Shown piece by piece: positions 124-37,245 of a stretch of 42,754 bases of DNA. The DNA comes from Candidatus Lumbricidiphila eiseniae (GTDB lineage: Bacteria > Actinomycetota > Actinomycetes > Actinomycetales > Microbacteriaceae): contig NAEP01000015.1 of the NCBI GenBank assembly GCA_002529645.1, forward strand, positions 1-42,754. The letters are read 5' to 3'. The position numbers and the translations under genes are program-made. Under the pieces are notes generated by a model that was given only the letters and a program-made list of their open reading frames with translations, was not told the DNA's origin and ran no database searches. Every line of letters starts with the position of its first letter. Within the stretch, counting starts at the first letter, position 1.

Positions 124-574
124 AACACACCAACCACCTGTGGATAACCCCGACGGAGGCACCACCCATCACACATCCTGCCGACCCCAACCACATGCGG
201 ACAACCCCTCCGGGCGGGAATGTGATGTTCTCCGTGGTGACCTCAACCAGGCTGCGCACAGATACCCCATCAGCGACGAGGCGGAAATCCTGAAGTACCC
301 GCCTCGACCAGGCTGCGCACAGATACCCCGAGTGCCGGGATGCTTCGGTTGACGAGCTGCGCCCTCGACCAGGCTGCGCACGGATACCCCCAGGGGGAAC
401 TGGGTAAGGAAGGCGACTCGGAACCTCGACCAGGCTGCGCACGGATACCCCACCTGCCCCTTAGCGGGGGGTCCGCGGGCACGTTCCTCGACCAGGCTGC
501 GCGCGGATGCCCCCTCCGGGTGGGAATGTGAGTGTCTCTATTCCGGGCTGGCCCCGATCATATGTGGGTAACTC
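124..574. CRISPR. Cas-less CRISPR-like array, 61-base period
   Basis: Five near-identical 28-base repeats lie at 241-268, 302-329, 363-390, 424-451 and 486-513, beginning CCTCGACCAGGCTGCGCACG and ending GATACCCC. Starts are 61, 61, 61 and 62 bases apart, giving 33-34-base spacers that mostly differ from each other. Degenerate copies in register end at 151, 208 and 574. A 28+33 geometry is typical of type I-E arrays. The minus-strand reading shares only about 12 of 28 positions with a generic I-E repeat, and the stem is poor. Two spacer positions (209-233 and 514-538) are homologous, which is unusual for independently acquired spacers. No cas gene is in the window; one could lie left of position 1. 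An intergenic tandem repeat family is the alternative. Confidence 0.5.
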
Positions 575-853
575 CGAGGAACCGCCCGTTTAACAGTGTG
601 TGGGATCTGGTGGTTTCAGTGGTGGTTAGCTCTCTTGAACCGGTCCGCGGAGGTGATCGTGGGCACGTTGAGGGCGGGTTGCTATCTGAACACCGTCGCA
701 TGATGCTGCAATCCCAGGTCCTCAAGATCGCATCGACCACCACCGGGCACGTCGTACCCAGCAGGCGCGAGGATCATTCCGAAAGTCCCGCGGCAACTTT
801 CTCGGTAATCCCGCTGATGGTGTCCTTAGATGTTGTTCCCACGGAGGTTGTGT
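575..853. other. Gene-free stretch between repeat loci
   Basis: About 280 bases with no ORF that resembles a protein. The open frames here have no ribosome binding site and no recognisable product. No clear repeat, terminator or promoter was found. Confidence 0.4.
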
Positions 854-946
854 GTGGTGTCTATCCACGAACGCTCGGCACATACCGCGGCGGGGTCGGC
901 TGCGGCGACGGCGAGTGGTGTCTATCCACGAACGCTCGGCACGTAC
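854..946. repeat. Direct repeat pair, 61-base period (locus 2)
   Basis: The 28-base sequence at 854-881, starting GTGGTGTCTATCCACGAACG, recurs without mismatch at 915-942; over 32 bases only one position differs. The offset is exactly 61, so the spacer is 33 bases, the same geometry as the array at 124-574 but with a different repeat sequence. It may be a relic two-repeat CRISPR-like unit or a local duplication. Confidence 0.5.
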
Positions 947-1053
947 TTCGCAGACCCGTATGCGGCGCGGCAGCGCGGAGCCAACGGGCACCGCAACGGC
1001 CAAACCCTCGCCGTATGCTGCCCCGCTGCAATAGCAGACACCCATACAAGCAA

Positions 1054-1141
1054 GTTCTACCTACGCCTGCGTTGTGTCTGCTGTGTGCGGCACCACCTCT
1101 GAATAGACGGATGCGTTCTACCTACGCGTGCGTTGTGTCTG
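1054..1141. repeat. Direct repeat pair, 61-base period (locus 3)
   Basis: The 27-base sequences at 1054-1080 and 1115-1141 differ at one position; they begin GTTCTACCTACGC and end TGCGTTGTGTCTG. The offset is again 61. Laid over a generic type I-E CRISPR repeat it matches at about 16 positions, including the central CGCGTGCG, and ACGC-GCGT forms a small stem. The second copy contains the stop codon of the adjacent DUF2304 gene (1122-1124), so the end of that protein is made of repeat sequence. Confidence 0.5.
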
Positions 1142-1505
1142 TGCTGATCTCAGCCGACGGAGACTCCAAGGAATTCAATCGCATGTCCAACAGCGCGATT
1201 TCCTCGGCAAGCACTCTGTTCTTAGCCTCTAGGCTCGTGAGCTCGGCGCTGTGCTGGATGTTAACAAGAACAAGAATGGCAATGCTGACAAAGTACACGA
1301 GGTTTGCCGGAACCTGAACGCCGATGAGCTCTGCGGCAGCCTGAACAATCGGCGGATACACCCCAATCACTAGGGCGAGCAGGCCCGCAACCAGCCACCA
1401 CAACGCGTGACGCTCGCGAAGTCGGCGACGGCGCAACAGTTCGACGACAACACCCAGCGTCACGATAGCTGACACGATGCCGAGAATGTAGAGTGCAACA
1501 GTCAT
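1122..1505 (-). CDS. DUF2304 family membrane protein
   Basis: 127-residue protein. Two hydrophobic helices (about residues 3-22 and 35-55) flank a basic RRRRLRER stretch, a third follows near 68-82, and the C-terminal part is a likely coiled coil (SLEAKNRVLAEEIALLDMRL). This matches DUF2304 proteins, usually encoded beside DPM1-type glycosyltransferases and thought to help membrane-linked glycan assembly. The start at 1505 is preferred over an in-frame start at 1595 because its ATG overlaps the stop of the upstream glycosyltransferase (ATGA), and because the extra residues are Cys-rich and unlike the family. The last residues lie inside a 61-base-period repeat, so the C-terminus may have been remodelled. 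Confidence 0.8.
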   Translation of the reverse strand: MTVALYILGIVSAIVTLGVVVELLRRRRLRERHALWWLVAGLLALVIGVYPPIVQAAAELIGVQVPANLVYFVSIAILVLVNIQHSAELTSLEAKNRVLAEEIALLDMRLNSLESPSAEISTDTTHA

Positions 1506-2224
1506 TGGTTCCTCGCAGTCCGTGCTCTGCTCGGTCGCGCAAGCGCAAAAAAGAGCGCGACAACAGCACGTGCTAAGTAGACAGCTGCTTTCCACGGATT
1601 ATGTGACGGCTGACCACCAGCTCGGGGTCGCATTGCCACGGGCACCTGCCGAACAGTGCACCCGTGGCGAGTCGCAATCACCAGCGCTTCGACCGTATCG
1701 CCCAAATATTCGGCTGGATACTCCTCAGAAAACAGCTGAACCGCCTTGGGCCCACACGCTCTGAATCCGGATGTTGTGTCGGTCAGTTTGGTGCGTGTTG
1801 TCCTGCTCAGTGTCACCGAGAGAAACGCCATCGCCCATTTTCGTGGACCTCGTACGTAGTAGTCACCTTCACCGGCAAAACGGGCCCCAATCACAACATC
1901 AGCGCCGTCGAGCGCGGCAAGCATCGCCATAACCTGTCGCGGATCATGCTGACCATCCGCATCAATTTGCACAACATAGCGATACCCGCCGCGGACACCA
2001 TACTTGAACCCGAGACGCATCGCACCACCCACCCCCAGGTTAAACGGCAGAACCGCGACCGTCGCGCCAGCTTCCCGGGCACGCGAGGCTGTGTCATCAG
2101 CCGACCCATCATCCACAACAAGACACGTGACCCCCTGCAGGTTGGCAAAAATCTCGTGCACAACCGACCCGACCGTCGCCTCCTCGTTAAAGGCGGGCAC
2201 CACAACGAGGGTTTGGGCGAGCAT
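1502..2224 (-). CDS. GT2 family glycosyltransferase (polyprenyl-phosphate type)
   Basis: 240-residue cytoplasmic family 2 glycosyltransferase. It has the N-terminal VVVPAFNEE nucleotide-sugar motif, VVDDGSADDT, and the DADGQHD metal-binding motif near residue 90, followed by DTTSGFRACG. That set is typical of DPM1/polyprenyl-phosphate glycosyltransferases that charge a lipid carrier with a sugar. Coupling with DUF2304 by ATGA overlap fits a small membrane glycosylation unit. I chose ATG 2224 because the conserved domain begins there; a GTG at 2308 would add 28 low-complexity residues. The ribosome binding site is weak in either case. The sugar cannot be told from sequence. Confidence 0.83.
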   Translation of the reverse strand: MLAQTLVVVPAFNEEATVGSVVHEIFANLQGVTCLVVDDGSADDTASRAREAGATVAVLPFNLGVGGAMRLGFKYGVRGGYRYVVQIDADGQHDPRQVMAMLAALDGADVVIGARFAGEGDYYVRGPRKWAMAFLSVTLSRTTRTKLTDTTSGFRACGPKAVQLFSEEYPAEYLGDTVEALVIATRHGCTVRQVPVAMRPRAGGQPSHNPWKAAVYLARAVVALFFALARPSRARTARNQ

Positions 2225-2400
2225 TGAGGTCGCAGTGGAGTTCCCGTCAGCACCACCGGTAGTGTGGTTCCTGGTAGCGTGGACGACTCCCCCCCTAGCC
2301 ACGACCACCGCTATCCCCGGCCTCGGGTAGGCTGTCTAGGTCCATTTCAGCACACTCGCATTAGTATCGATAGCTGCGCCACATGATAGGAGAGCACCCG
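2225..2400. promoter_or_regulatory. Divergent intergenic region between GT2 and DUF2142 genes
   Basis: This 176-base gap separates two divergently transcribed surface-glycan genes and must hold both promoters. I could not assign -35/-10 pairs with confidence. An AGGAGA ribosome binding site lies about nine bases before ATG 2401. Confidence 0.4.
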
Positions 2401-3984
2401 ATGAGCGTAGCATCCGATAGCCATCCCGTGACAACAACGGAGAATCGCTTCTCAGCAGAGGCAGCACAACCCAGTTCAAGACGAGTTCGGATGATCCGAA
2501 TCATCGCTGCGGTCATCGCACCGGTCATGCTGGCCGTCGCACTGGGCACCTGGGCTCTTGCGTCACCCGTCGGATCTAGCCCGGACGAGGATTTTCACCT
2601 TAACAGCATTTGGTGCGGTAACGGAATACGCCAGGGACTGTGCGAGGCCGGTGCTACCGATCAATCACGCAGTGTCCCGTCCGCGCTACACGAGAGCTCA
2701 CACTGCTTCGCCGGTAAACCGACGCAAACCCCCACCTGTCTACTCAGCCCCTACGAAAAATTCGTCGACACCACTCGAGGTAACTTCAACAACAGCAATG
2801 AGGTCAGTGGGAGTGGTTATCCAACTCTCTACTACGCAGTAATGGGGCTCATCGCATCGAAGCACGTTACCACGTCTGTCATCGTGATGCGCTTACTTAA
2901 CGTCCTCATCTATGTCGGCCTCATTACCGCTCTCGGCCTCCTCCTGAGCCCGGCACGACGTGGGATTTTACTCTGGTCAATCCCCATCACAATCGTCCCG
3001 TTTGGAATGTTTCTTATTCCGAGCATCAACCCCTCCGGTTGGGGTCTGATATCGGCGTCAACGCTGTGGTTGGCGTTAGTGGGATACTTCGAAGCCGATT
3101 CGACGCGTCGGCGAATCGGTTTTGGTGCCATCGCCCTGGCCGCCTACGCGATAGGGGTCGGTGCGCGCGCCGACGCCGGTGCCTATGCGGTCGTCGCGAT
3201 CGTCATCGCGATAATTCTGACGGCACAACGCACGCGACGGTTTGTGTTGCTCTCGATCCCGCCACTGCTTTCCATCATTGTCGCCATCGTGATCTTCCTG
3301 CAGCTGGGGCAGAACGATCCGACAGCCAGAGGCTCCGAACCAAGGCCGAACTCAGAGATGTTCCTCAACTTCTTCAGACTCCCAGAACTGTGGGCCGGGT
3401 CATTTGGTACATGGGGTCTAGGATGGCTCGACACCACCCTACCCGGAACGGTGTGGGCCCTCGCCTTCCTTGTCTTTGCCGGAATGACCTTCCGTGCATT
3501 CGGCAGGTTCAGTCGGCGCACGCTTCTGGCAACACTCGGAACTGGATTCTTTCTGGTTGCGATACCACTCGCAGTGTTGTTCCGCAACCACCTGCTTGTC
3601 GGTACTCTCATTCAGCCGCGATACCTACTACCCCTCCTGATAATCCTGGCGGGAGTCATGCTCTTTTCATGGACCGGTGAATCCGTTGGTCTCTCTCGAG
3701 CACAAATAGCGGTAGTCGTGGCTATGCTTGCCATCGCCAATACGGTCGCACTCCACGTCAATATGCGTCGGTACCTCACCGGCACCGATACCATATCTCT
3801 CAACCTTAACTCCCAAGTGGAATGGTGGTGGGCAATCCCGGTTAGCCCACTAACGGTGTGGGTTGTCGGAACGCTTACATTCGCACTGTCCCTAGCCGCA
3901 ATCGCTACGCTAGCCTTCACTGATCGATATCGGAGGGTGGCACCACCACAGAGCCAAGGGCTGTTATCCGAGCAGTTACGCTAA
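2401..3984 (+). CDS. DUF2142 family polytopic membrane protein
   Basis: 527-residue integral membrane protein with about ten to twelve hydrophobic helices. The first (about 32-55) is followed by an extracytoplasmic loop with SSPDEDFHL; the PDE-type acidic motif after helix 1 resembles the active-site loop of GT-C glycosyltransferases. DUF2142 proteins are commonly found in surface polysaccharide loci and are thought to transfer lipid-linked sugars outside the membrane. The start at 2401 is chosen for its AGGAGA site; ATG 2383 lies upstream of it. It is divergent from the GT2/DUF2304 pair, which could supply lipid-linked sugar (inference). Confidence 0.78.
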   Translation: MSVASDSHPVTTTENRFSAEAAQPSSRRVRMIRIIAAVIAPVMLAVALGTWALASPVGSSPDEDFHLNSIWCGNGIRQGLCEAGATDQSRSVPSALHESSHCFAGKPTQTPTCLLSPYEKFVDTTRGNFNNSNEVSGSGYPTLYYAVMGLIASKHVTTSVIVMRLLNVLIYVGLITALGLLLSPARRGILLWSIPITIVPFGMFLIPSINPSGWGLISASTLWLALVGYFEADSTRRRIGFGAIALAAYAIGVGARADAGAYAVVAIVIAIILTAQRTRRFVLLSIPPLLSIIVAIVIFLQLGQNDPTARGSEPRPNSEMFLNFFRLPELWAGSFGTWGLGWLDTTLPGTVWALAFLVFAGMTFRAFGRFSRRTLLATLGTGFFLVAIPLAVLFRNHLLVGTLIQPRYLLPLLIILAGVMLFSWTGESVGLSRAQIAVVVAMLAIANTVALHVNMRRYLTGTDTISLNLNSQVEWWWAIPVSPLTVWVVGTLTFALSLAAIATLAFTDRYRRVAPPQSQGLLSEQLR

Positions 3985-4066
3985 AACGTTCCTAGCCCGA
4001 GCAGCAGTGCTGGCAGGAGCCGACATTACCGCACAAAACTAACGAAGCGCCCTTCACCCCGCAGTG

Positions 4067-5068
4067 CTAGAACTGAAATCCGGTTGGGAACGGATCACTC
4101 GGGTCGCACAGATACTGAGCCATCCCGGTGACCCATGCTCGTCCCGTAATTATCGGAACAACGGCCGGGCGACCGGCGACCGTTGTTTCCGCGATGAGAC
4201 GACCCACAAACCGACTACCAATAAACGACTCATTAGTGAAGTCTTCGTGCAAACCCAACTCACCATGAGCCCACAGCTCCGCCATCCGCGCCGATGTGCC
4301 GGTGCCGCACGGCGACCGATCAAACCAACCGGGGTAGATCGCCATTGCGTGCCGCGAGAGCCGGGCATCCGAACCGGGTGCAATGAACTCCACGTGGTGA
4401 CAGTGATCAAGCCCCGCAATCTCGGGATGCCTCGGCGGTACCTGTTCGTTAATGGCATCCATAATCGCAAGGCCCGCGCTGAGGATATCGTGCTGACGAG
4501 CACGATCAAACGGCAAACCGACCGCATCGAGATCGACCATGGCGTAAAAGTTTCCGCCGAACGCCATCGAATACGGAACCTGTCCGAACCCCGGAACATC
4601 GATCTGTGCATCCAACACGTCAACATAACTGGGAACATTCTCCAGGGTGACGCTCTGCGCGTGACCATCTTTCACCGCCACCCGCGCAGTGACAAGCCCG
4701 GCGGGGGTGTCGAGCCGAATAACAGTCTCCGGCTCCACAACCGCCACCATCCCCGTCTCGACGAGCACCGTGGCAACACCGATCGTGCCGTGCCCACACA
4801 TGGGCAGACACCCCGACACCTCAATGTAGACAACACCCCAGTCACAGTCATCCCGAGTGGGTGGCTGCAAGATCGCGCCACTCATCGCGGCGTGGCCGCG
4901 GGGCTCGTTCATAAGAAACAGTCGCAGATCGTCGAGATTCGCCATAAAGTACAGGCGCCTCTCGTTCATGGTCGAACCGGGGATAACCCCGACTCCACCG
5001 GTGACAACCCGTGTCGGCATTCCCTCGGTGTGGGAATCGACAGCGTGAATGACTCGCTGTGAGCGCAT
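4067..5068 (-). CDS. Proline racemase family: probable 4-hydroxyproline 2-epimerase
   Basis: 333 residues, normal for the family. Both catalytic cysteines are present: Cys91 in PMCGHGT and Cys254 in DRSPCGTG. A Cys/Cys pair is the two-base racemase/epimerase arrangement (proline racemase or 4-hydroxyproline 2-epimerase), not the dehydratase variants that replace one Cys. The gene is last in a run encoding a DapA-type deaminase and a D-amino-acid dehydrogenase, which fits epimerisation of trans-4-hydroxy-L-proline to the cis-D isomer as the pathway's entry step. It starts nine bases after the deaminase stop, with a poor ribosome binding site. Proline racemase itself remains possible. Confidence 0.85.
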   Translation of the reverse strand: MRSQRVIHAVDSHTEGMPTRVVTGGVGVIPGSTMNERRLYFMANLDDLRLFLMNEPRGHAAMSGAILQPPTRDDCDWGVVYIEVSGCLPMCGHGTIGVATVLVETGMVAVVEPETVIRLDTPAGLVTARVAVKDGHAQSVTLENVPSYVDVLDAQIDVPGFGQVPYSMAFGGNFYAMVDLDAVGLPFDRARQHDILSAGLAIMDAINEQVPPRHPEIAGLDHCHHVEFIAPGSDARLSRHAMAIYPGWFDRSPCGTGTSARMAELWAHGELGLHEDFTNESFIGSRFVGRLIAETTVAGRPAVVPIITGRAWVTGMAQYLCDPSDPFPTGFQF

Positions 5069-5077
5069 GCGCAGACT

Positions 5078-5992
5078 CTAGCGGCTCGCGATGTAGTCAA
5101 GCGCCCGCTTCGTATCGCGCCGTACCTGCTGTTCGTGTCCCGCCGAGAGGGGGCCGCGGGGGGGCCGGGTGCGGCCACCATAGCTCTGGCCGGTCAGGTC
5201 GATCGACAGCTTGATGGCCTGCACAAACTCTGTCTTCGTGTCCCACCGGAACACCGCAACGAGGTACTTATACAGTTCACGTGCCTCCGCAATTTTTCCG
5301 GCCTGCACGAGGTCGTAGATCTCTACCGCCTGCTTCGGGAACGCGTTCGGATAGCCCGCGAACCATCCGACCGCACCCACAACCAGCGACTCAAACAACA
5401 GATCGTCAGCGCCAGCGACCACCTGGATGTCACACAGCTCCTGAATTTCAAGCACCCGCCGGACATCGGTCGAGAACTCCTTCACCGCGACAATGTTCTC
5501 CAACTGGAACAGTTCGGCGATGAGATCGGGAGTGAGGTCAACCTTCGTGTCGATCGGATTGTTGTACATCATGATGGGCAGTCCGACATCGTTCAGTCGC
5601 GTGAAGTGCTCGATAACCTCGGAGCGATTTGCCCGGTAGATCGTCGGGGGCAACGCAAGAACACCGTCGGCGCCGTCCTGCTTCGCAAGCTCCGCCCACT
5701 TCACGGCCTGGTGCCAGCCGACACCGTGTACACCGGCGACGACAAGACCCCGGTCCCCGACCGTTTCCACGGCAACCTGGATGACCCGGCGCCGCTCCTC
5801 ATCGGTCAGGCTCGAGTACTCACCCAGCGACCCGTTCGGGCCGACCCCGCGACATCCATTGTTCATGAGGAAGTCGCAGTGTGCGGCAAATCGGTCATAG
5901 TCGACAGCGAGCCCGGCGGGGGCGTGTGCATCCTCCTTGAACGCGAGAGTGGTTGCGACAATGACGCCACCGAGATCGAACTTTTTGGTCAT
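5078..5992 (-). CDS. DapA-family lyase: probable 1-pyrroline-4-hydroxy-2-carboxylate deaminase
   Basis: 304-residue TIM-barrel protein of the dihydrodipicolinate synthase/N-acetylneuraminate lyase family. Visible signatures are GVGPNGSLGEYSSLTDEE (substrate carboxylate loop), the catalytic tyrosine in MMYNNP and the Schiff-base lysine in AVKEFS. In hydroxyproline catabolism this family removes ammonia from the dehydrogenase product to give alpha-ketoglutarate semialdehyde. The assignment rests on context, between the D-hydroxyproline dehydrogenase and epimerase genes; DapA itself would sit with lysine genes. AAAGGA precedes ATG 5992 by about nine bases. The C-terminal R/G/P-rich stretch (RTRPPRGPLSAG) is odd but in frame. 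Confidence 0.82.
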   Translation of the reverse strand: MTKKFDLGGVIVATTLAFKEDAHAPAGLAVDYDRFAAHCDFLMNNGCRGVGPNGSLGEYSSLTDEERRRVIQVAVETVGDRGLVVAGVHGVGWHQAVKWAELAKQDGADGVLALPPTIYRANRSEVIEHFTRLNDVGLPIMMYNNPIDTKVDLTPDLIAELFQLENIVAVKEFSTDVRRVLEIQELCDIQVVAGADDLLFESLVVGAVGWFAGYPNAFPKQAVEIYDLVQAGKIAEARELYKYLVAVFRWDTKTEFVQAIKLSIDLTGQSYGGRTRPPRGPLSAGHEQQVRRDTKRALDYIASR

Positions 5993-6028
5993 GAGAGCGG
6001 TCCTTTCGGGACAAATAATGGTGAGCAG

Positions 6029-7789
6029 TTAGGTGGATGTGGCTGGTTGGCCCGACGGACCGGTGGGTGAGCGCGGCGTGGGATCGGATCGGCGAGGTGT
6101 CGACCCGGATGGAACCGAGGGCGCAGCGGATGGAACCGAGGGCGCAGCGGATGGAACCGAGGGCGCAGCGGATGGAACCGAGGGCCTGGCGGATGGAACC
6201 GAGGGCCTGGCGGATGGGGACGGTGGCATAGCGGCGAGCTCGGCGAGGCGTACGGGGGTGGTAATCGGGCGACGGTCGGAAACAGCAACGGGCACGGGAG
6301 CAGGGAGCGATATCCGAGTGTGATCGATGTCCACCTCCGCGACACCGACCGTCGGCTCCCCGATCAGAAGATCTTCAACCGTCCGCCCACAGACTCGAGC
6401 CTGACACACACCCAACCCGGCGCGCGTTGTCATTCGTAGTGAACGCAGGCTGGGGCCGCCGGTTGCGGCGAGGGTGCTGCAGAAACGACCGTAGGTGACC
6501 TCCTCGCACCGACACACGATCGTGTCCTCGGTGAGCCACGCGGTCCAACCCGGCTGAATACCGTGGGCGGCTTCGATCCGCGCGGCAAATCCGGTGAAAA
6601 CGGTCGCACTCCGGCGGGCAGTTACCACCGCTGCATCCGCGGAGCACCCACCCGCGGCGGCGTGACCGGCGAGTTCCCCCTCCGCGAGTGCGGCATCGAC
6701 TCCACCAATCCGAGTGATCTCCCCCGCCGCAAAAACACCGGGAACGCTCGTGCGCTGGTCAGCGTCGACGACGACAAACCGGTCCGGCGAGAGGGCGCAT
6801 CCCGCCGCGATCGCAAGTTCGAGCCGGGGTGTAAAACCGTGGCTGACGCACACGGCATCCGCCTCAATTCTGCGAGCGGTTCCGGGAATCGGTGCCCACT
6901 GCGCATCGACCCGGGCAACTGTCACTGCCGCCACTCGATCCTCACCGTGCGCGGCAACGACCGCGTATCCGGTGCGGTAGGGAACCCGGTGGCGCAGTTG
7001 GCCTCGGATGTATCCGGCAAGCTCGCCGCTCTTGTGAGCTGCACCCGCCAACTGCCACGGTTTCGAGAGCCACCCCCGTATCATCTGCCGAGGGGTGGAT
7101 GCCTCGTACACACCCAGCACGGTCGCTCCCGTGCTCACAAGCGACGACGCAACGGGCAGCAAAAACGGGCCCGCGCCGGCAACAACAACACGCCGTCCCA
7201 CCGCAACCCGCTCCCCCTTGGCGTACGCCTGTGCGGCACCCGCCGTGAAAACTCCCGGCAGGTCCCAGCCCGGAAACGGGAGCGTGCGATCGTGCGCCCC
7301 GGTCGCGAGCACAAGGGTTCTCGGTTGGATGGTGCGCGGTTTTCGGCCTGTTCCGTCGGGTGGCCCGATCAGCGCGTGCACGGTCAACGGCACCGATGGC
7401 GCAGGTGATGCGATAGCCGTGCCATCCCTCGGGTCTTGTCGGTCGGTCGATTCTGTCGTCTCACCGTCACCGCGACGACCCGACTCCAGTGCCCAGACCT
7501 GAGCACCGAGAATGATCTCGCACCGCGGGGCATCCCGAAGCTCACAAACCAAACGCCGATACGTCGCCCAACCGTGGTGAAGAATCTCCTCGCGCGCTGC
7601 CCTGCGGGTCTCGGGCAGGTGCCGCCAGTACTGCCCACCGAGGGAATCAGCGGCATCGAGCAGGGTGACCGATGCACCACGCCGAAGCGCGGCACGCGCT
7701 GCTGCAAGCCCGGCCGGCCCCGCGCCAATGATGAGCACGTCCGGACGTAGGACACCGTCCATCCGATTGTCCCGGGGCACAGCACCGCT
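6029..7789 (-). CDS. D-hydroxyproline dehydrogenase FAD/NAD-binding subunit with BFD-type Fe-S domain and repeat tail
   Basis: About 587 residues; the start ATG spans 7790-7792 and overlaps the upstream gene by ATGA. Residues 19-50 carry the FAD Rossmann motif (GAGPAG), 203-210 a second GAGP motif, and 350-365 the usual VFAAGEITRIGG. A bacterioferritin-associated-ferredoxin-like cluster site follows: Cys427, Cys429, Cys463, Cys468. This is the HcnB/LhpE-like subunit of three-part dehydrogenases that oxidise D-amino acids. Homologues end near residue 520. Here about 65 extra residues rich in Pro/Ser/Ala follow, encoded by a 21-base tandem repeat. The tail is probably disordered and dispensable. 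Confidence 0.85.
   Translation of the reverse strand, partial: SGAVPRDNRMDGVLRPDVLIIGAGPAGLAAARAALRRGASVTLLDAADSLGGQYWRHLPETRRAAREEILHHGWATYRRLVCELRDAPRCEIILGAQVWALESGRRGDGETTESTDRQDPRDGTAIASPAPSVPLTVHALIGPPDGTGRKPRTIQPRTLVLATGAHDRTLPFPGWDLPGVFTAGAAQAYAKGERVAVGRRVVVAGAGPFLLPVASSLVSTGATVLGVYEASTPRQMIRGWLSKPWQLAGAAHKSGELAGYIRGQLRHRVPYRTGYAVVAAHGEDRVAAVTVARVDAQWAPIPGTARRIEADAVCVSHGFTPRLELAIAAGCALSPDRFVVVDADQRTSVPGVFAAGEITRIGGVDAALAEGELAGHAAAGGCSADAAVVTARRSATVFTGFAARIEAAHGIQPGWTAWLTEDTIVCRCEEVTYGRFCSTLAATGGPSLRSLRMTTRAGLGVCQARVCGRTVEDLLIGEPTVGVAEVDIDHTRISLPAPVPVAVSDRRPITTPVRLAELAAMPPSPSARPSVPSARPSVPSAAPSVPSAAPSVPSAAPSVPSGSTPRRSDPTPRSPTGPSGQPATST
6107..6211. repeat. 21-base minisatellite inside a coding region
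   Basis: Five head-to-tail 21-base units start at 6107, 6128, 6149, 6170 and 6191. Each reads GGATGGAACCGAGGGC plus a variable end (GCAGC in the first three, CTGGC in the last two), and a degenerate sixth follows. The unit is a multiple of three, so on the minus strand it adds seven-residue P/S/A repeats to the end of the FAD subunit without a frameshift. Near-identity of units points to recent or ongoing slippage. Confidence 0.92.
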
Positions 7790-8112
7790 CATTCGATCAC
7801 CTCGGGCACATCGTCGTGCTGGGTGGTGATGACATCACCCGGTTGCGCCCGTCGTTGGCACGCGCGGACATCCCGCTCGCCATTGACCGTGACAATGCAG
7901 TCAAAGCAGACACCAATCCCACAAAACAGGCCGCGCGGTTGCGCCCTGACCGAGGTTCGACGCCAACTGAGCCTGCCCGCGGCGAGGACAATCCCCGCTA
8001 TCGTCTGACCGGTCACACCCGTTAGCTCATCGCCATCCAACGTGAGAGTCAGTGGCTGCGGCTGATCGGGCCGAATCGGGTCAGATTCGGGCGAAAGAAG
8101 TCGGGCCGACAC
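7789..8112 (-). CDS. D-hydroxyproline dehydrogenase 2Fe-2S subunit
   Basis: 107-residue ferredoxin-like protein with the 2Fe-2S ligands Cys64, Cys69, Cys72 and Cys85 (FCGIGVCFDC ... RACQ). It matches the small HcnA/LhpF-type subunit that passes electrons within multi-subunit FAD amino-acid dehydrogenases. It begins with GTG, sharing one base with the stop of the upstream oxidoreductase gene (TAGTG), and its stop overlaps the next start, so all three subunits look translationally coupled. Confidence 0.85.
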   Translation of the reverse strand: MSARLLSPESDPIRPDQPQPLTLTLDGDELTGVTGQTIAGIVLAAGRLSWRRTSVRAQPRGLFCGIGVCFDCIVTVNGERDVRACQRRAQPGDVITTQHDDVPEVIE

Positions 8113-9308
8113 TATGCCGCCTCTGCAAGATACGGAGCGAGCGATGCCCGGTTCACTGCGAACGACGCGATATCAATCGGGAAAGAAGCCTCCACCTCGC
8201 AATCGGTGATGCCCGCACGAAGCAGTTCAGCGGTTGCGAGCGAGAGTCCGATTCCGGCACCCTCGTGCCCGGTCGCGTGCCAGAGGCCGGGCATCCGATG
8301 ATCTTGCCCAATCACGGGCAGATGGTCTGGCATGTAGGGGCGGAAACCCCCGTAGCTGCGCATGACGCTCGCCGTCGCCAGGAACGGAAACAGTCGGATC
8401 GCCTTGGCCGCGATCTCCCGAAGGGGTGTGATCCGGAGGCTGTCATCGAAGCCGCACTGCTCCCGGCTCGACCCGATCAGCACGGTACCAGCGGCGGTGG
8501 TCTCCACGACACTCGAGGTCTGCAACCCGACATCCGCCGACTGGGTTGCGCCCACGTAGTCGCCGTCATACACCTTGTGAAACACCCGGTGCGCCATTCG
8601 GGTCGTGACGAGCACATTTCCCCGCCGCGGGCGCACGGGCAACCCCACCCCGAGCACCCGTGCCACATCGCCAGACCAGGGTCCGGCTGCATTGACGATG
8701 TGGTCGGCACGGATGTCCCCTCCGCTCGTGCTCACACCCACAAGCCGCCCCCCGGAGTCGTGCACTCCACCGGTCACCGTGACTCCGGTGCGCACCGATG
8801 CCCCCCGGCGACGGGCCGATGCGAGCAGCGCCTCGGTCGCGATAACCGGTTGGACCTGGGAGTCCTCGGGGTAGAGTACGGCGGCGGTCACGTGCGGTGT
8901 GAGTTCCGGCTCGAGCCGATGTGTCTGGTCGCGCGTGAGTTCGTGCGCATCGACTCCCGCCGATCGCTGGCGGGCGGCAAAATCGAGAAGCGGCTGTGCA
9001 CCCTCTGCTGTTGTTGCGGCGACGAGGCCACCCTTGCGCTCATACTCAAGGGGAGGAAAATCCGGGCCCAACTCGGCGATCAGATCGGCGACGGTGCGCG
9101 ACCACAGCGAGGCGGCGTACTGTGCCAGTTGCAGTTCCAGTCCGGGGCCTTTGTCAGAGACCAGAAGGTTGCCCTCGCACATAGCGGAGGTCGCCGAGGC
9201 CGTACTGCCGCGCTCGAGAACGGTGACGTTCATGGCGGCCCCGCTGAGCGCACGAGCACAGGCGGCACCGACAATGCCCGCGCCAATAATGACAACGCTG
9301 CCTGACAT
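8112..9308 (-). CDS. D-hydroxyproline dehydrogenase catalytic FAD subunit (DAO family)
   Basis: 398-residue FAD-dependent oxidoreductase of the D-amino-acid oxidase fold. GAGIVG at 9-14 binds FAD, a GGL/RGNVLV region lies mid-protein, and the C-terminal FRPYMPDHLPVIG then GHEGAGIGLS are typical of DAO/HcnC proteins. With the 2Fe-2S and BFD subunits it would form the membrane-associated D-hydroxyproline dehydrogenase that yields 1-pyrroline-4-hydroxy-2-carboxylate. The start at 9308 has a purine-rich GAGAGGGG site upstream. A perfect palindrome lies 25-36 bases before the start, so this is probably the first gene of its own transcription unit within the larger run. Confidence 0.87.
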   Translation of the reverse strand: MSGSVVIIGAGIVGAACARALSGAAMNVTVLERGSTASATSAMCEGNLLVSDKGPGLELQLAQYAASLWSRTVADLIAELGPDFPPLEYERKGGLVAATTAEGAQPLLDFAARQRSAGVDAHELTRDQTHRLEPELTPHVTAAVLYPEDSQVQPVIATEALLASARRRGASVRTGVTVTGGVHDSGGRLVGVSTSGGDIRADHIVNAAGPWSGDVARVLGVGLPVRPRRGNVLVTTRMAHRVFHKVYDGDYVGATQSADVGLQTSSVVETTAAGTVLIGSSREQCGFDDSLRITPLREIAAKAIRLFPFLATASVMRSYGGFRPYMPDHLPVIGQDHRMPGLWHATGHEGAGIGLSLATAELLRAGITDCEVEASFPIDIASFAVNRASLAPYLAEAA

Positions 9309-9332
9309 TCCACCCCTCTCAAGACTCCACGA

Positions 9333-9344
9333 GTAATATATTAC
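9333..9344. promoter_or_regulatory. Palindromic operator candidate GTAATATATTAC
   Basis: A perfect 12-base palindrome 25 bases upstream of the dehydrogenase catalytic-subunit start. It holds a -10-like TATATT, so a bound repressor would block the promoter. A near-copy (GTAATATGCTAC) lies at 17429-17440 in the other promoter of the locus. The GntR/FCD regulator next door is the obvious candidate ligand-responsive binder (inference). Confidence 0.55.
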
Positions 9345-9419
9345 ACCTCGCTACGCTTTCACAGGGGTCAACCCGCCAACCCGGCAACATCGGGTGTTGC
9401 GAACCTCACCACCACGCTC

Positions 9420-10103
9420 TCATACCCCTTCGGGCTCCCCCGCCCACCAACCAACCGCATGGCGGATGTGTCGATCCATGAGTTCCCTCGCGGCGTGCGC
9501 TTTTCCCCTCGCCAGGTGCGTGAGCAGTTCGTGATGCTCCATTGCCGAGGCATCCAGTGTCTTTGATTCCACCAGCGCAGACAGCCCCACCATCCTTGTT
9601 CGCGACCGCAGATCGGCAATCGTGTCCACCAGGATGGGGTTTCCAAGCAACCGGGTGAGCCCCAGGTGAAACTCCACATCGGCTTCCAAAAAAGACTGCA
9701 GATCACCGGTTCGCGCACCCTTGGTAATGCGATCCGCGAGCGCGGTGTAGGTCGGGAGCTCGGACGAGGGAAACCGAGTGGCAAGCTGCTGCATCGCCGG
9801 TGGCTCCAGCAACCGGCGCACCTCGACAAGCTGCTGGAGAACCTCCGGGCTGACCTCGGTTACTCGGAACCCCCTGTTTTTCACCGACTCGACAAAACCG
9901 CGCGTCTCCAGGTCAAGAATCGCCTCCCGAACCGGAGTAGCAGACACATCAAACTGCTGCGCCAGCGTGGGCACCGTGAGAAGAGTGTTCGGTGCTAGTT
10001 CACCAGAGATAATCGCCGCCGCGAGCGCCTTGCCTACGTGCGTTCTGAGACTCGGGTGAAACTGGACAGGTTTCAGGCTCGACACTGGCGCCGACGATTC
10101 CAC
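9420..10103 (-). CDS. GntR family regulator, FCD (FadR) subfamily
   Basis: 227 residues. The winged helix is at about 20-85, with the recognition segment VPTLAQQFDVSATPVREAIL and the RGFVES wing. The rest is an all-helical FCD ligand domain with the metal-binding type residues expected there (ADVEFHLGL, MEHHELL, MDRHIRHA). It most likely controls the surrounding proline/hydroxyproline genes. The start is a GTG at 10103 with AGGG seven bases before. An inverted repeat (10127-10141) lies 24 bases upstream and may be an autoregulatory site. Confidence 0.86.
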   Translation of the reverse strand: MESSAPVSSLKPVQFHPSLRTHVGKALAAAIISGELAPNTLLTVPTLAQQFDVSATPVREAILDLETRGFVESVKNRGFRVTEVSPEVLQQLVEVRRLLEPPAMQQLATRFPSSELPTYTALADRITKGARTGDLQSFLEADVEFHLGLTRLLGNPILVDTIADLRSRTRMVGLSALVESKTLDASAMEHHELLTHLARGKAHAARELMDRHIRHAVGWWAGEPEGV

Positions 10104-10126
10104 AGGTAACCCTTTCTGACTTTGCT

Positions 10127-10141
10127 GTTACACCGCGTAAC
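10127..10141. promoter_or_regulatory. Inverted repeat GTTAC-N5-GTAAC before the GntR gene
   Basis: Five-base arms separated by five bases, just upstream of the GntR start and before the stop of the Xaa-Pro aminopeptidase gene. The GTAAC arm resembles the ends of the palindromes at 9333 and 17429, but spacing and core differ, so a shared regulator is only a suggestion. Confidence 0.35.
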
Positions 10142-10148
10142 GGACAGG

Positions 10149-11603
10149 CTACCGCTGGCTCTGCATCCACTTTTCCAGACCGAGTGCATCGAGCGGAAGC
10201 GCGTCAGACAACACCGTAGAGCCCTGCTGGGTGACCAGAAGGTCATCCTCGATCCGCACTCCAATTCCTCGAAGTTCCGGCGGAACCGTCTCATCAAAAC
10301 TGTGAAAGTACAGCCCGGGTTCCACGGTAAGAACCATCCCCGGAGCAAGCTGTGCAGCCTGATAGGCCGAGTAGCTTGAGCGCGCACAGTCGTGCACATC
10401 AATGCCCAGGTGATGCCCGATCCCGCAGACCAGGTAACGGCGATGGTGCTGCCCGGTCGGCGAAAGCGCCTCGTCAACCGAGACCGGAAGCAGGTCCCAA
10501 TCAAAAAGCCCCTGCGCAATGACGGCCATCGCGGCGGCGTGGAAGTCACTGAACGCCCGCCCCGGCTGCACGGCAGCGAGCCCGGCGCGGTGGGCTTTCT
10601 CCACGAGTTCGTGCACCTGGCGCTGCGCCGCACTAAATGTCCCGGATGCCGGGAACGTGCGGGTGATATCCGCGGTGTAGTACGACCTCACCTCAACACC
10701 CATGTCGAGCAACAAGAGTTCCTCGGGCACCACCGGGCCATCACACCGCACCCAGTGCAGCGTCGGCGCGTGCCCGGCACTGCCGACAATGGTCGTGTAG
10801 CCCGGCCCATTGCCGGTCGTGCGAGCGTGACGGTCAAAACTGGCCTGCAACCACCGTTCTCCACCCGCCTCAATCGCGGTCGGAATTTCCCGGATAACGC
10901 TGCGGAATCCGTCGATTGTGGCGTCAACAGCGGCACGAAGCTGTGCGATTTCCCAGTCATCCTTGATCATTCGAAGTTCCGCGAGCACGCGGCACAGTTC
11001 CTCGGAACGGCGCAGCCCTCTCGCCGCAATGTGTGGTGAGGTAAACGTTCCCGCGCCGAGCGCATCTGCCATGGGAATTCCGTTTAACCGCTCCAGGTGC
11101 GCGACCGAGACATCCAGCGCAGCCGACCAATCGGATGCATCGGGGGCCGCCCCCACCCACAGCTCACCGCGCAGCGAATCCGCGAAAAAATCAGGGTCAC
11201 CCGGATACGCGGGTGACCGTACGTACACGGTGGCGTCGTGGCCGCCCGCGGTCGGTGTCATGACAAGAACGGCGTCCTCGGCATCGCATCCGGTAAGCCA
11301 GAAAAAATCACTGTCCGGCCGGAACTCGTAGTACGTATCATTCGCTCGCACCGGAGCTCGACCCGAGGCAACCACGATCGTGTGGCCTGGAAGTGCCGCA
11401 CTCAGTCGGGCTCGGTGAGAGGCGGCCGCGCCGGCCGCGCCGGGTTCCACCGCCGGTGCACGATCCGGGGTTCCCCAGCCCGTGCCCATGTATTCCACAA
11501 ATCCGGTCATTTCGCGGAGTTTGGGAAGACGAGGATCCGGCTCGCTCGAGGCAGGCATCGAGGAACCTCCCGACGGTGACGAAGTCTGCGGTGTGTCAGT
11601 CAT
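10149..11603 (-). CDS. pepP: Xaa-Pro aminopeptidase (M24B, PepP type)
   Basis: 484-residue cytoplasmic metallopeptidase. An aminopeptidase P N-terminal domain (creatinase-like, with ANDTYYEFRPDSDFFWLTG) is followed by the pita-bread M24 domain. All five metal ligands are seen: two Asp (LLDMGVEVRSYYTADITRTF), His in GIGHHLGIDVHD, Glu in TVEPGLYF and Glu in GVRIEDD. It removes the residue before proline in peptides, so imported X-Pro or X-Hyp peptides would be opened. The chosen start has AAGGAAAAT directly upstream; the in-frame start at 11756 runs into the permease gene. The N-terminal 35 residues are Ser/Pro-rich. Confidence 0.88.
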   Translation of the reverse strand: MTDTPQTSSPSGGSSMPASSEPDPRLPKLREMTGFVEYMGTGWGTPDRAPAVEPGAAGAAASHRARLSAALPGHTIVVASGRAPVRANDTYYEFRPDSDFFWLTGCDAEDAVLVMTPTAGGHDATVYVRSPAYPGDPDFFADSLRGELWVGAAPDASDWSAALDVSVAHLERLNGIPMADALGAGTFTSPHIAARGLRRSEELCRVLAELRMIKDDWEIAQLRAAVDATIDGFRSVIREIPTAIEAGGERWLQASFDRHARTTGNGPGYTTIVGSAGHAPTLHWVRCDGPVVPEELLLLDMGVEVRSYYTADITRTFPASGTFSAAQRQVHELVEKAHRAGLAAVQPGRAFSDFHAAAMAVIAQGLFDWDLLPVSVDEALSPTGQHHRRYLVCGIGHHLGIDVHDCARSSYSAYQAAQLAPGMVLTVEPGLYFHSFDETVPPELRGIGVRIEDDLLVTQQGSTVLSDALPLDALGLEKWMQSQR

Positions 11604-11690
11604 ATTTTCCTTCCGAGTGTGGAGTTGATCCCGACCGCGCCCCGGGCCATGAACCAGTACGCGTGTTTTCCTTCCGAGCGTGAACCCGAT
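11601..11690. repeat. Direct repeat pair, 61-base period (locus 4), carrying the pepP ribosome binding site
   Basis: TTTTCCTTCCGAGTGTG at 11605 recurs as TTTTCCTTCCGAGCGTG at 11666, exactly 61 bases on. Similarity covers about 29 bases (11601-11629 against 11662-11690). The pepP-proximal copy supplies its ribosome binding site on the minus strand. This is the only non-coding gap in the transport operon, and the period equals that of the repeat loci at 124, 854, 1054 and 37157. Confidence 0.45.
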
Positions 11691-11713
11691 GGTGGGGCGA
11701 GTCGATGGTCTGG

Positions 11714-12682
11714 TTACGAAGCTGTCCTTATGCGAGAATCTAACAGCACATAGCACAAATCGACAATGAGGTTCACGGCAACAATAAAAATTCCACCGAC
11801 GAGAACGACCCCAATAATGGTGGGGCGGTCCTGTGCCTGAACCGAAGTGACAGCCAGATTCCCGATCCCCGGAAGCCCGTAGACCTGCTCAATAACGATC
11901 GCGCCACCGAGCAAGAATCCGACATCATTGCCCAACTGAGTAACCAGCGGTGGCATCGCGCTACGGAACGCGTGTTTGTAGATGACGCGTCGCTCGGTGA
12001 GCCCCTTTGCGCGTGCGGTGCGAATATAGTCCTCACCGAGTACCTCCAGCATTTGACCGCGTGTGAGGCGGGCGTAGATTGCCGCCGTCACAAGGGCAAG
12101 CGTTGTCCACGGCAGTATCAAGTGCCACGCCCACTGGAGGGGATCCTCGGTCAACGGCACGTAGCCGCTCGGGGGAAATATCGGGAATCCAGCTCTCGTG
12201 GGAAGAAAGTACAGCAGGTACAGTGACATCATCCCGAGAACAAAGGTGGGGAAACTAATCCCCAGCAGTGCGAATGTCTGACCCGCCCGATCCCGAACGG
12301 TTCCCGGTCGACGGGCTGAGGCGATGCCAATCGGCACCCCGATCGCAAGCCACAGCACCACCCCGCCCACAACGAGCGAGAGGGTTACCGGAAGTCGATC
12401 CAGGATAATCCCGGTAACCGGGAGCTGATTACGGAAAGAAAACCCAAGATTGCCCTGCAGGAGGTTCCCGATGAAGCTCAGGTACTGTTCCCCGATCGGG
12501 CGGTTGAGTCCCAGGTTTTGTCGCACCTGTTCGAGTAACTCATTGTTCGCCTTGTCTCCGGCAATAGCACGGGCAGGATCCCCCGGAGCCAGGTAGAACA
12601 GGAGGAAAACGAACAGGCTCAGCGCGAAAAGCACGACCAGTCCAAAACCGATTCGGCTCAACAGATACCGTGACAGTTTCAT
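11714..12682 (-). CDS. dppB: Peptide ABC transporter permease, DppB type
   Basis: 322-residue membrane protein with six helices. The N-terminal helix is followed by a periplasmic-side loop with YLAPGDPARAIAG, and the ATPase-contact loop is RTARAKGLTERRVIYKHAFRSAMPP. These are DppB/OppB hallmarks. ATG 12682 overlaps the stop of the DppC gene (ATGA); a longer ORF to 12850 only reads through that gene. It forms the import channel with DppC. Confidence 0.9.
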   Translation of the reverse strand: MKLSRYLLSRIGFGLVVLFALSLFVFLLFYLAPGDPARAIAGDKANNELLEQVRQNLGLNRPIGEQYLSFIGNLLQGNLGFSFRNQLPVTGIILDRLPVTLSLVVGGVVLWLAIGVPIGIASARRPGTVRDRAGQTFALLGISFPTFVLGMMSLYLLYFLPTRAGFPIFPPSGYVPLTEDPLQWAWHLILPWTTLALVTAAIYARLTRGQMLEVLGEDYIRTARAKGLTERRVIYKHAFRSAMPPLVTQLGNDVGFLLGGAIVIEQVYGLPGIGNLAVTSVQAQDRPTIIGVVLVGGIFIVAVNLIVDLCYVLLDSRIRTAS

Positions 12683-25035: not shown

Positions 25036-25176
25036 CGCCACCACCCAACGACGATCCCCTGACCACGGGGCAAGCCTACAGTTACACAACTACGCTCAGA
25101 AATTAGCAGAGTGCAAACTATCGAGTCCTTAATCGAATATGGGGTAGAACTACTCATTCGATGTCAGGAGGTTCTC

Positions 25177-25440: not shown

Positions 25441-25499
25441 GGACATCGGTGGCGTCGCTGAGGAACTGGTTGGGGCAGGCTGGTATTGAGAGGGCAGCT

Positions 25500-28090: not shown

Positions 28091-28121
28091 CGGTGCTCCT
28101 TGACTCGTCTTGCGAAAATTG

Positions 28122-30281: not shown

Positions 30282-30288
30282 AGCCGTG

Positions 30289-31329: not shown

Positions 31330-31335
31330 GACCGG

Positions 31336-32688: not shown

Positions 32689-32693
32689 GAGAT

Positions 32694-33845: not shown

Positions 33846-33962
33846 GTGACGTACATTCCTTTCCGGGCGATAACCCGAGGTGTGATCCGCTGTTGATAGC
33901 TGCGAGGGGTGGTCAAGAGGGAGGGGGTCGGGCGACCGCAGCGGCACCCGACCCCCGAGAAA

Positions 33963-35243: not shown

Positions 35244-35307
35244 CTGATGCCTTTCGTAGCGGTGTGTGAGGAATTGAGTAAACAGGTAGCGGGTGGTTGA
35301 CACGTTG

Positions 35308-36141
35308 TTATCCCTTAATCGATCCGGCAAGAAGTCCAGACACAAGCTTGCGCTGAATGATCGCGAAGACCAACAGGCTGGGCAGAGTGGTGATGAGTGC
35401 TGTTGCCGCAAGGGGTCCCAGGTTGACGAGCCCTTCAGCCCCGACATATCGCGCAAGAAGAAGCGGTGCTGTCTCGAGAGCGGGGTCTTGGATGATGACC
35501 AGAGCGAAGAAAAACTCGTTCCAGGCTGAGATGAACGAAAACATGATCGTCGCGACAACTCCGGGTGCAAGAAGCGGGAAGATAATTCGCCACAGAACGA
35601 CGGCCCGTGACGCGCCATCGGTCTCGGCGGCTTCCTCAAGTTCTCTCGGAATGGCAGCGATGTAGCTTTGGAGCATCCACAGAGTGAAGGGAAGCGCCCA
35701 CACAACATAGACGAGGATGACCCCGACGAGGGTGTTAATGAGGCCCAGGTTTTTCAGGAGAATGAACACGGGGATGACGATAAGAACGAAGGGGAACACC
35801 TGGCTCACGAGAATCCACCCGATACTCACCGTGCGGACTCTGCTTCGACTTCTTGCAAGAACATAGGACGCGGGTGCCGAAATAAGCGTCGTGATGATCG
35901 CTGTTGCCGTGGCGACGATGAATGAGTTACGCAAGGCCAAGAACAGGTTTGACTGACCGAATGCGATGTGGAAATTTTCGAGCGTCCAGTTCACCGGCAG
36001 GATCGTCGGTATGAGTTTTGTGAGCTCTGGTGGCGATTTGAACGCCGTTGAGAACAGCCAGAGCAGAGGAAATCCGAGGAAGATAATGTACGCACCCAGC
36101 GCGATGTACTGAGCGATGCGCGTTCCGGTTTTTGGTTTCAT
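35308..36141 (-). CDS. Sugar ABC transporter permease, MalG type
   Basis: 277 residues, six helices, with the ATPase-contact loop EAAETDGASRAVVLWRIIFPLLAP. It starts four bases inside the end of the MalF-type gene. Second channel subunit of the importer; no ATPase gene is in the operon, so a shared MsiK-like ATPase elsewhere is presumed. Confidence 0.9.
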   Translation of the reverse strand: MKPKTGTRIAQYIALGAYIIFLGFPLLWLFSTAFKSPPELTKLIPTILPVNWTLENFHIAFGQSNLFLALRNSFIVATATAIITTLISAPASYVLARSRSRVRTVSIGWILVSQVFPFVLIVIPVFILLKNLGLINTLVGVILVYVVWALPFTLWMLQSYIAAIPRELEEAAETDGASRAVVLWRIIFPLLAPGVVATIMFSFISAWNEFFFALVIIQDPALETAPLLLARYVGAEGLVNLGPLAATALITTLPSLLVFAIIQRKLVSGLLAGSIKG

Positions 36142-37076
36142 GCCCTGGCCGCCGACCGTAACTGCCGACGTAGATACAGTCCCAGGATCGCGAGAATGAC
36201 GATGACCATGACATTGCCAAGCGCGGAAGCGTATCCAAATTCACCGTTACCGAATGCCCGCTGGTAGGCAAAAAGCATGGGGAGCAGCGTGCGGCCGCCG
36301 GGGCCACCGTCGGTGAGAACGAAAACGAGTCCGAACGAGTTGAAGTTCCAGATGAAGTCGAGCGCGGTGATGGCGAAGGCCACCGGAGCGATGGAGGGCC
36401 ATGTGACCGCTGTGAACCGCCGCCACGCTCCCGCACCGTCGAGGGAGGCGGCCTCGTGGAGCTCGGCGGGGGTTCCCTGAAGCGCCGCGAGCAGCGTCAC
36501 CGTTGTTTGCGGCATCCCCGCCCACACTCCCACGATGATGACGGCAGGCAGTGCCAGCTCGAAGCTGCCAAGCCAGTTGATGCTGTCTGTGATGAGACCG
36601 AGCGAGTGCAGCATTCCGTTGAGGATTCCAGCATCGGGGTGATAAATAAGTTTCCACAGAATGGCAACAATGACAGACGGCATCGCCCACGGCACGAGCG
36701 CGAGCGGCCGTGCCAGCCACTGGAGTTTGAGCCCCGAGTTGAGCAGCAGCGCAAGCCCCAGTGCGAGAAGGAATTGGATGGCGGTGACAGAGAACGCCCA
36801 GACCAGCCCAATCTGGAATGAGCTCCAGAAGAGCTCGTCCTTGAGCATCTTGACGTAGTTGTCGAACCCATTAAAGCTGAACTGAACGTTCCGGCCCGCA
36901 CGCGCGTCGGTGAACCCAAGCCACACACCGTTCACCAGAGGATAAACGCTGAAGACGACCACGGGAATGAGGCTCGGTACGAGTAGGAGCCACATTCCTC
37001 GGGAGTTGCTTGCGGGTGCCCGAAGTTCGCTCTGTCGACGCCGCGGGCGAGCAAGCGCAACGGGATTTTGTGCCAT
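36138..37076 (-). CDS. Sugar ABC transporter permease, MalF type
   Basis: 312 residues, six helices, contact loop EAASLDGAGAWRRFTAVTWPSIAP. First gene of the nine-gene operon. GAGAGG lies about six bases before ATG 37076. The LacI-type operator begins only 17 bases upstream of the start, so the transcript leader is short. Confidence 0.9.
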   Translation of the reverse strand: MAQNPVALARPRRRQSELRAPASNSRGMWLLLVPSLIPVVVFSVYPLVNGVWLGFTDARAGRNVQFSFNGFDNYVKMLKDELFWSSFQIGLVWAFSVTAIQFLLALGLALLLNSGLKLQWLARPLALVPWAMPSVIVAILWKLIYHPDAGILNGMLHSLGLITDSINWLGSFELALPAVIIVGVWAGMPQTTVTLLAALQGTPAELHEAASLDGAGAWRRFTAVTWPSIAPVAFAITALDFIWNFNSFGLVFVLTDGGPGGRTLLPMLFAYQRAFGNGEFGYASALGNVMVIVILAILGLYLRRQLRSAARA

Positions 37077-37093
37077 CCGATGCCTCTCTGCAC

Positions 37094-37135
37094 AACTGTA
37101 AACGTATACAGTTTGGACGAATAAGAAGGTATCAA
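37094..37135 (-). promoter_or_regulatory. LacI-type operator and overlapping promoter of the ABC/ADP-ribosylglycohydrolase operon
   Basis: AACTGTAAACGTATACAGTT (37094-37113) is a near-perfect 20-base palindrome with the central CG of LacI-family operators; nine of ten half-site bases match. On the minus strand a TTGATA (37135-37130) and TGTATA (37110-37105) are 19 bases apart, so the palindrome covers the -10 region. Repression by the operon's own LacI protein is likely. Confidence 0.68.
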
Positions 37136-37156
37136 GGGAATGTTTATTCTGTCAAC

Positions 37157-37245
37157 TCCGCGCCCACACACCGATGGAAATGTGTCGAATTCATGCAGTA
37201 GCGGGTGCCGGTGGGGGTCCGCGCCCACACACCGATGGGAATGTG
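37157..37245. repeat. Direct repeat pair, 61-base period (locus 5)
   Basis: A 28-base sequence starting TCCGCGCCCACACACCGATG is at 37157-37184 and again at 37218-37245 with one mismatch. The offset is 61 and the spacer 33. Read on the minus strand, CCCAT and GTGGG can pair around a six-base loop, as in type I-E CRISPR repeats, and TTCCC..CG....GGG positions match. It lies between pheT and the ABC operon promoter. Confidence 0.5.

Follow-up and report, generated by a model that had tools for sequence, protein, structure and literature searches.

The question raised by this stretch is why several loci that look unrelated in sequence should all repeat with one period of 61 bases. The window, meaning the whole stretch analyzed, is a complete contig (NAEP01000015.1, here C20; 42,754 nucleotides) of Candidatus Lumbricidiphila eiseniae, whose genome comprises 2,847,834 bases in 73 contigs. 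A preliminary description had placed five such loci in the window and offered decayed solo units of clustered regularly interspaced short palindromic repeats (CRISPR), off-target integration by Cas1-Cas2, or an unknown 61-base element as possible origins. The second of these is strongly supported by the analysis reported here: with a probability of about 0.94, the loci are off-target (non-canonical) integration products of the organism's own type I-E Cas1-Cas2, made mostly from self DNA. In the usual case, a locus has two copies of a 27-29-base sequence with a 33-base insert between them.

The window was scanned for self-similarity at offsets 30-139 over bases up to 42200, with a score threshold of 16. 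Only offset 61, together with one interval of 62, gave several unrelated loci at or above this threshold. Four of the five loci described earlier were confirmed (241-513, 854-942, 1054-1142 and 37157-37245; Table 1), and the single 62-base interval noted in the first of them was seen again as its 34-base insert. The fifth, at 11601, scored 14.5 against a window background of 0.10 hits per offset at threshold 14, and is for that reason regarded as probable but unproven; it lies near the start of an M24 peptidase gene, and a second copy of its candidate insert was not found in the genome. At either end of the first locus as described earlier (124-240 and 514-574), similarity at about 61 bases is weak, and these parts were not secured. 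Within them, the segments 209-240 and 514-546, which flank the 241-513 array, have the stretch CTCCGGG[C/T]GGGAATGTGA in common at a distance of 305 bases (5 x 61) and are possibly further decayed units. The 27-base pattern of the 241-513 locus has no further site in the genome at up to 3 mismatches. Second copies of 5 of the 7 secure window inserts were found elsewhere in the genome.

A census was taken over 681.6 kb of the genome (24%, window included), and the genome-wide excess at offset 61 that the preliminary description had proposed to look for was found. Pairs belonging to the canonical CRISPR array described below (recognized by the string GCACATGCGGGG) and all-N contigs under 3 kb were dropped before counting. 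Repeat pairs at offsets 60, 61 and 62 then numbered 24, 44 and 10 (78 in total), against a mean of 0.60 and a maximum of 5 pairs at the other offsets between 40 and 90. Filtering, which removed one low-complexity pair (L018) and stretches outside 20-34 bases, left 77 usable pairs in 63 loci; leaving out a second, I-E-like array near cas6e (L015:11840) gives the 62 loci and 75 inserts on which the counts below are based. If the sample is representative, the whole genome is estimated to hold about 260 off-array sites (95% Poisson range 200-334). Ordinary tandem duplications that happen to have one length are the least probable of the explanations weighed here: examples do exist in the window (at 6106, 18570 and 42273), and the offset-60 pairs counted in congeners below may be such, yet no other offset has a comparable excess, the duplication covers only some 28 of every 61 bases, and the majority of 33-base inserts have their copy elsewhere, so that for most loci this explanation is refuted.

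At the three offsets 60, 61 and 62, exact duplication extends over a median of 27, 28 and 29 bases, respectively, and the insert is therefore constant at 33 bases; the anatomy is that of a fixed-length insert inside a target duplication varying by one base in either direction. Two copies of the target were found in 52 of the 62 loci and three in 8, while clustering assigned four to one locus and the window locus 241-513 has five, giving 10 loci with at least three. On inspection, the four-copy cluster, which lies on contig C35, proved to be a three-copy locus beside a two-copy locus with a different target. The duplicated pairs are identical in 21 of 75 cases and carry several mismatches in others, and the number of mismatches between target copies increases weakly with that between insert and source (rho 0.29, p=0.035); the off-array copies are of differing age. 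When the 75 inserts were compared all against all, no pair from different loci had more than 10 bases in common. The same comparison of the 75 target copies gave a top pair of 17 bases and at most 15 in the other listed pairs, in keeping with the earlier observation that repeat sequences differ between loci. The 17-base match, which is exact, is shared by the distant loci at window 854-942 and L048:10803-10884 and is the sole strong match between targets. The insertions thus have no common sequence, unlike those of a transposon or a miniature inverted-repeat transposable element (MITE).

The preliminary description had also stated that cas genes are absent. None was seen in the window, but a type I-E set is present on contig C67, where an array with 70 almost uniform repeats of 28 bases (3 with a mismatch) comes after cas1e and cas2e, 66 of the 69 gaps being 33 bases long; the window loci have the same 28 + 33 geometry. 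The cas1e product matches TIGR03638 at 334.7 bits (cut-off 215.6) and that of cas2e matches TIGR01873 at 63.9 bits (cut-off 33.15), both matches being full-length, and residues 5-303 of the 309 in Cas1 align to the solved Cas1 8fy9_B. The best Cas1 match in contigs of other genomes, from Actinopolyspora, is 51% identical. Further along from the array lie cas5e, cas7e, cas11e, cas8e, cas3 and cas6e. Matches to cas8e (confined to its first half), cas11e, cas7e and cas5e are above NCBIfam cut-offs, cas3 was identified by its two domain models, and cas6e was called by PADLOC only and falls under its NCBIfam cut-off. By its cas1e and cas2e, its Cascade and cas3 genes and its array geometry, the genome encodes a CRISPR-Cas system of type I-E. 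Just ahead of the canonical array, 49 bases together with the array's first repeat form an exact tandem duplicate (77 + 77 bases, C67:47574-47727, L014:17575-17728), and the array therefore has two leader-repeat junctions. The second small array, beside cas6e (C67:61839-61987, L015:11840-11988), contains three copies in reverse orientation of a repeat matching the canonical one at 24/28 positions; one of its inserts has 93% self matches.

All 77 inserts were searched against the whole genome, with a repeat search for some that had no match; since two of the searches scored 40 of 47 and 40 of 52 candidates, the number of matches is a lower bound. At least 54 of the 75 inserts have a second copy elsewhere in the genome. 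Across the 52 inserts for which flanks were available, identity to the source is 95.5% inside the 33 bases and 28.5% (chance) in the 15-base flanks, so that the copies start and stop with the insert. Source matches are 33/33 in 19 of the 52 and at least 31 in 37. Within the 24% sample, a second place was found for 14/75 inserts, compared with 5/124 flank 33-mers and 38/1000 random 33-mers. The dinucleotide AA stands directly 5' of the protospacer, on either strand, at 19/52 sources versus 8.1% of random sites (p=9e-9). For Escherichia coli type I-E adaptation, a review (PMC10011333) gives AAG as the protospacer-adjacent motif (PAM), a 33-bp protospacer and repeat duplication by staggered cleavage; it also states that self DNA is taken up in naive adaptation and that no more than half of naive spacers have the canonical PAM. 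The self-copy and AA figures fit such unselected, naive uptake. Neither the self origin of most inserts nor the number of loci had been foreseen in the preliminary description.

Spacers of the canonical array have a different composition. Of its 68 spacers, 39 were searched genome-wide (low-complexity, duplicate and later-array ones were left out), and a self match was obtained for 2, both at the leader end: leader-nearest spacers 1 and 2 match C4:71863 (31 bases) and C24:9828 (33/33, AA before), respectively, which raises the question whether interference is active. A third canonical spacer, outside the 39, has a 97% self match in the sampled sequence. Canonical spacers average 52% G+C and off-array inserts 60.5%. 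The simplest reading of the difference in self content between the array and the off-array sites is selection, in that self spacers in the array would attack the chromosome, whereas off-array units, whose repeats are unrelated, probably yield no guides. These data bear directly on the idea that the loci are what decay has left, after cas loss, of several true CRISPR arrays that each had a repeat of their own. Although the 28 + 33 geometry, the mini-arrays of 3-5 copies and the sequence drift between copies would all fit such remnants, 62 loci with largely unrelated targets in 24% of one genome, 52 of them with just two copies, would not; most inserts have a self copy as against 2 of the 39 canonical spacers searched, and a canonical system is present with a nearly uniform repeat. 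Decayed arrays are accordingly judged extremely improbable, and the earlier option of decayed solo units is not supported.

Searches of the canonical spacers against phages (and, for L014:17600-20000 only, against plasmids) returned no convincing protospacer. Strong phage and plasmid hits of the canonical array were in multiple pieces at about 70% identity and were read as matches to the repeat; the single-piece hits had E >=0.01 save one of 3e-5 (70% over 148 bases), which was likewise read as a match to the repeat. In Saccharomonospora phage PIS 136 (JX006077.1), the match to the canonical array (positions ~15680-15892, ~71%) falls in many pieces, and for this reason the record may hold a CRISPR-like array.

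Target sites chosen for off-array insertion resemble the canonical repeat loosely. The window loci do not share that repeat (best match 13/28); a general I-E consensus gave no clear result with them, and the genome's own repeat was taken as the right yardstick. Across the 63 loci, which here include the repeat-like second array, 62% have at least 13/28 matches to the canonical repeat, compared with 19% of random sites (rank test p=8e-18). In 37/62 loci, versus 9.8 expected, the target has CC at positions 8-9 or GG at positions 20-21, and in 9, versus 0.5, it has both; these positions were picked as the best of a scan after base counts of the same loci, which somewhat inflates the excess, though in the canonical repeat they fall on stem bases. 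No AT-rich, leader-like flank was found on either side of the 62 loci.

Other genomes were scanned in the same offset range. Cas1e was found in 1 of 60 genomes of the genus examined, the present one; one further weak hit in those genomes (E=1.9e-4, 24% identity) has an internal stop codon. Six cas1-less congeners (600 kb) gave 4, 0 and 0 pairs at offsets 60, 61 and 62; their offset-60 pairs, 4 at score 20 and 7 at score 16, have lengths of 24-171 bases. Two small-genome congeners (199 kb) gave one offset-60 pair each, at score 18-18.5. Five Cas1e carriers of other families (560 kb), all with Cas1 above the I-E cut-off, gave 1, 1 and 0 pairs, a count that leaves out the stretches of G037 and G038 holding their arrays. 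The 61-offset pair of G037 (L296:9146) is a 36-base repeat with a 25-base gap and was rejected as lacking the 28 + 33 geometry. In 1.23 Mb surrounding 80 other named cas1 loci, from which pairs with 10-mers occurring at least 5 times were filtered out as arrays, 6 pairs were counted at offsets 60-62; 4 of them were taken to be short arrays whose repeats are I-E-like, and 2 to be longer duplications. Because neither the carriers nor the 80 cas1 loci show such an excess, I-E carriers do not in general have such scattered units at the sampling used.

An unknown 61-base mobile element, or templated repair in which short patches are copied during break repair, would explain why most inserts copy distant chromosomal sequence. 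Against an element stand the limit of 10 bases shared between inserts of different loci, which leaves no common element sequence, and a unit length that varies as 27, 28 or 29 plus 33; against both stand a patch fixed at 33 bases with a 27-29-base target duplication, the AA signal beside the source and the lack of excess in cas1-less congeners. We consider this explanation very unlikely.

Under off-target integration, Cas1-Cas2 would capture a 33-bp prespacer, mostly from the host chromosome and enriched for AA at its 5' side, the expected place of the PAM. The prespacer would be inserted by staggered attack at chromosomal sites loosely like the CRISPR repeat (CC8-9 and/or GG20-21), and gap repair would duplicate 27-29 target bases to yield a 60-62-base unit. 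A site once hit could be hit again, which would produce mini-arrays of 3-5 copies. Insert length (33), duplication length (27-29), self copies together with AA, repeat-like targets and one site that is insert-free in relatives were all observed as expected of integration products. From this pattern we infer Cas1-Cas2 as the agent of the chemistry, continuing integration and a lack of immune function in the off-array units.

Several observations weigh against this reading. No source was found for 21/75 inserts, and some of the matches obtained could be paralogues, since random and flank 33-mers also have second places. On contig C35 (L022), where six off-array loci with 8 inserts are clustered within 14 kb, only 1 of the 8 has a self match (88%), unlike in the rest of the genome. 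Judged by AA, inserts have the same orientation as the repeat-like target in 13 cases and the opposite one in 12, with 3 ties, which may only reflect a near-symmetric target motif; dyad symmetry of the targets is, for its part, not raised (4.48 vs 4.39). The comparisons cover a single strain of the species, and bridging by blastn to congener DNA spanned no intergenic locus of this genome. Off-target integration explains the features described here except the missing orientation rule and the sourceless inserts on C35.

Off-array loci avoid genes. Genes were called with a simple home-made program, which marked 74% as coding; on this basis, 48 of the 62 loci are intergenic, 9 lie at gene edges and 5 inside genes, as against 23, 7 and 70% of random placements. 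The units in 4 of the 5 gene-internal loci are 60 bases long and for that reason stay in frame; the fifth (61 bases) is probably upstream of the true start of its LysR gene, because the Pfam helix-turn-helix (HTH) match starts only at residue 98. An insertion of 2 x 60 bases, amounting to 40 residues, was found in a PAC2-family gene. The homologue of this gene is recovered, in 35 of 36 congeners, as two genome-abutting pieces (gap <=36 bases) that break at the insertion stretch, the 36th (G014) having a weak PAC2 match only, and the insertion is absent from 11/11 homologues aligned residue by residue. A PRTase-domain protein (L022:12425-13051) and a GntR regulator (L022:5878-6789) each have an in-frame 60-base unit near the N-terminus, and the GntR protein contains three AWQT motifs about 20 residues apart.

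Taken together, these results make it likely that off-target integration in this organism is sustained and genome-shaping and not a rare by-product: it would have left hundreds of events of different ages, a record of the unselected self DNA of naive adaptation, new arrays at repeat-like sites and in-frame 20-residue protein units, whereas the spacer repertoire of the canonical array is a different one in which self matches are mostly lacking.

Coordinates of the window features are collected in Table 1. The window also contains tandem repeats of 21 and 24 bases inside called genes (6106-6217 and 18570-18654) and a 126-base tandem repeat of 3.8 copies (42273-42754) that runs off the contig end. 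Rfam and tRNA searches gave no match in the window, nor did searches of positions 1-1300 against phages and 1-12000 against plasmids.

Table 1. Positions of repeat copies, inserts and insert sources in the window; percentages are identities to the second copy.
Feature	Position	Strand	Details
Off-array mini-array, 5 copies of a 28-base unit	241-513		3 inserts of 33 bases and 1 of 34
Mini-array copies	241-268, 302-329, 363-390, 424-451, 486-513		28 bases each
33-base insert of mini-array	269-301		second copy C31:11041-11073, 97%
33-base insert of mini-array	330-362		second copy C27:5005-5037, 97%
33-base insert of mini-array	391-423		second copy C3:30818-30850, 100%
34-base insert of mini-array	452-485		second copy not found in own genome
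Duplicated target, copy 1	854-881		copy 2 at 915-942
33-base insert of 854 locus	882-914		second copy not found in own genome
Duplicated target, copy 1	1054-1081		copy 2 at 1115-1142
33-base insert of 1054 locus	1082-1114		exact copy of C3:18760-18792
Likely source of insert on contig C1 (L016:18995 locus)	2203-2235	+	97%
Weak candidate	11605-11682		16/17 bases at offset 61; copies 11605-11621 and 11666-11682
Duplicated target, copy 1	37157-37184		copy 2 at 37218-37245
33-base insert of 37157 locus	37185-37217		second copy C56:43907-43939, 97%

As a natural statistical record, such loci document where the integrase errs, which DNA is captured before selection and what this costs the host. The target-site rules of an actinobacterial I-E integrase, the actual proportion of self to foreign DNA in naive uptake (autoimmune selection having probably spared off-array inserts) and the question whether mutational load from adaptation helps explain the patchiness of CRISPR all become testable by sequence. 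The in-frame units suggest that CRISPR adaptation can add protein-coding sequence. Caution is also advised with short CRISPR-like loci called orphan arrays, which may be integration scars.

No report of a comparable natural genome was recognized in a literature search by titles and abstract starts, with most subscription papers lying outside the search. The kind of event is known; its natural scale, the self-derived and PAM-biased inserts and the in-frame insertions appear to be new. Casposons use a Cas1-family integrase with target duplication, and differ in that the present inserts are 33 bases of captured DNA, too short for a gene. To our knowledge, off-target Cas1-Cas2 insertion is known mainly from overexpression experiments. 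Nivala, Shipman and Church reportedly described in 2018 off-target integration with target duplication that makes new CRISPR-like loci, with a few hints in natural genomes. As in their system, spacers here enter the genome outside the array and the target is duplicated; unlike their overexpression setting, the genome is a natural one; its sites, estimated at 200-334, differ in age, hold mostly self inserts and in places have grown repeatedly or lie as in-frame units in genes. Their study (doi 10.1038/s41564-017-0097-z) is cited in PMC11788318 for integration of spacers outside the array into the genome on Cas1-Cas2 overexpression, and in PMC9456107 non-canonical integration is said to be raised near integration host factor (IHF)-like motifs. 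In Streptococcus thermophilus, ectopic acquisition places spacers at non-standard positions inside an existing array, according to PMC7999890; the non-standard position is common to both cases, whereas the present sites are scattered over the chromosome. With the canonical array on C67, the off-array loci share a repeat length of 28 bases, a spacer length of 33, the 61-base period and some stem bases, and they differ from it in that their repeats are unlike one another, they mostly hold one unit and most of their inserts have a self copy (2 of the 39 spacers searched in the canonical array).

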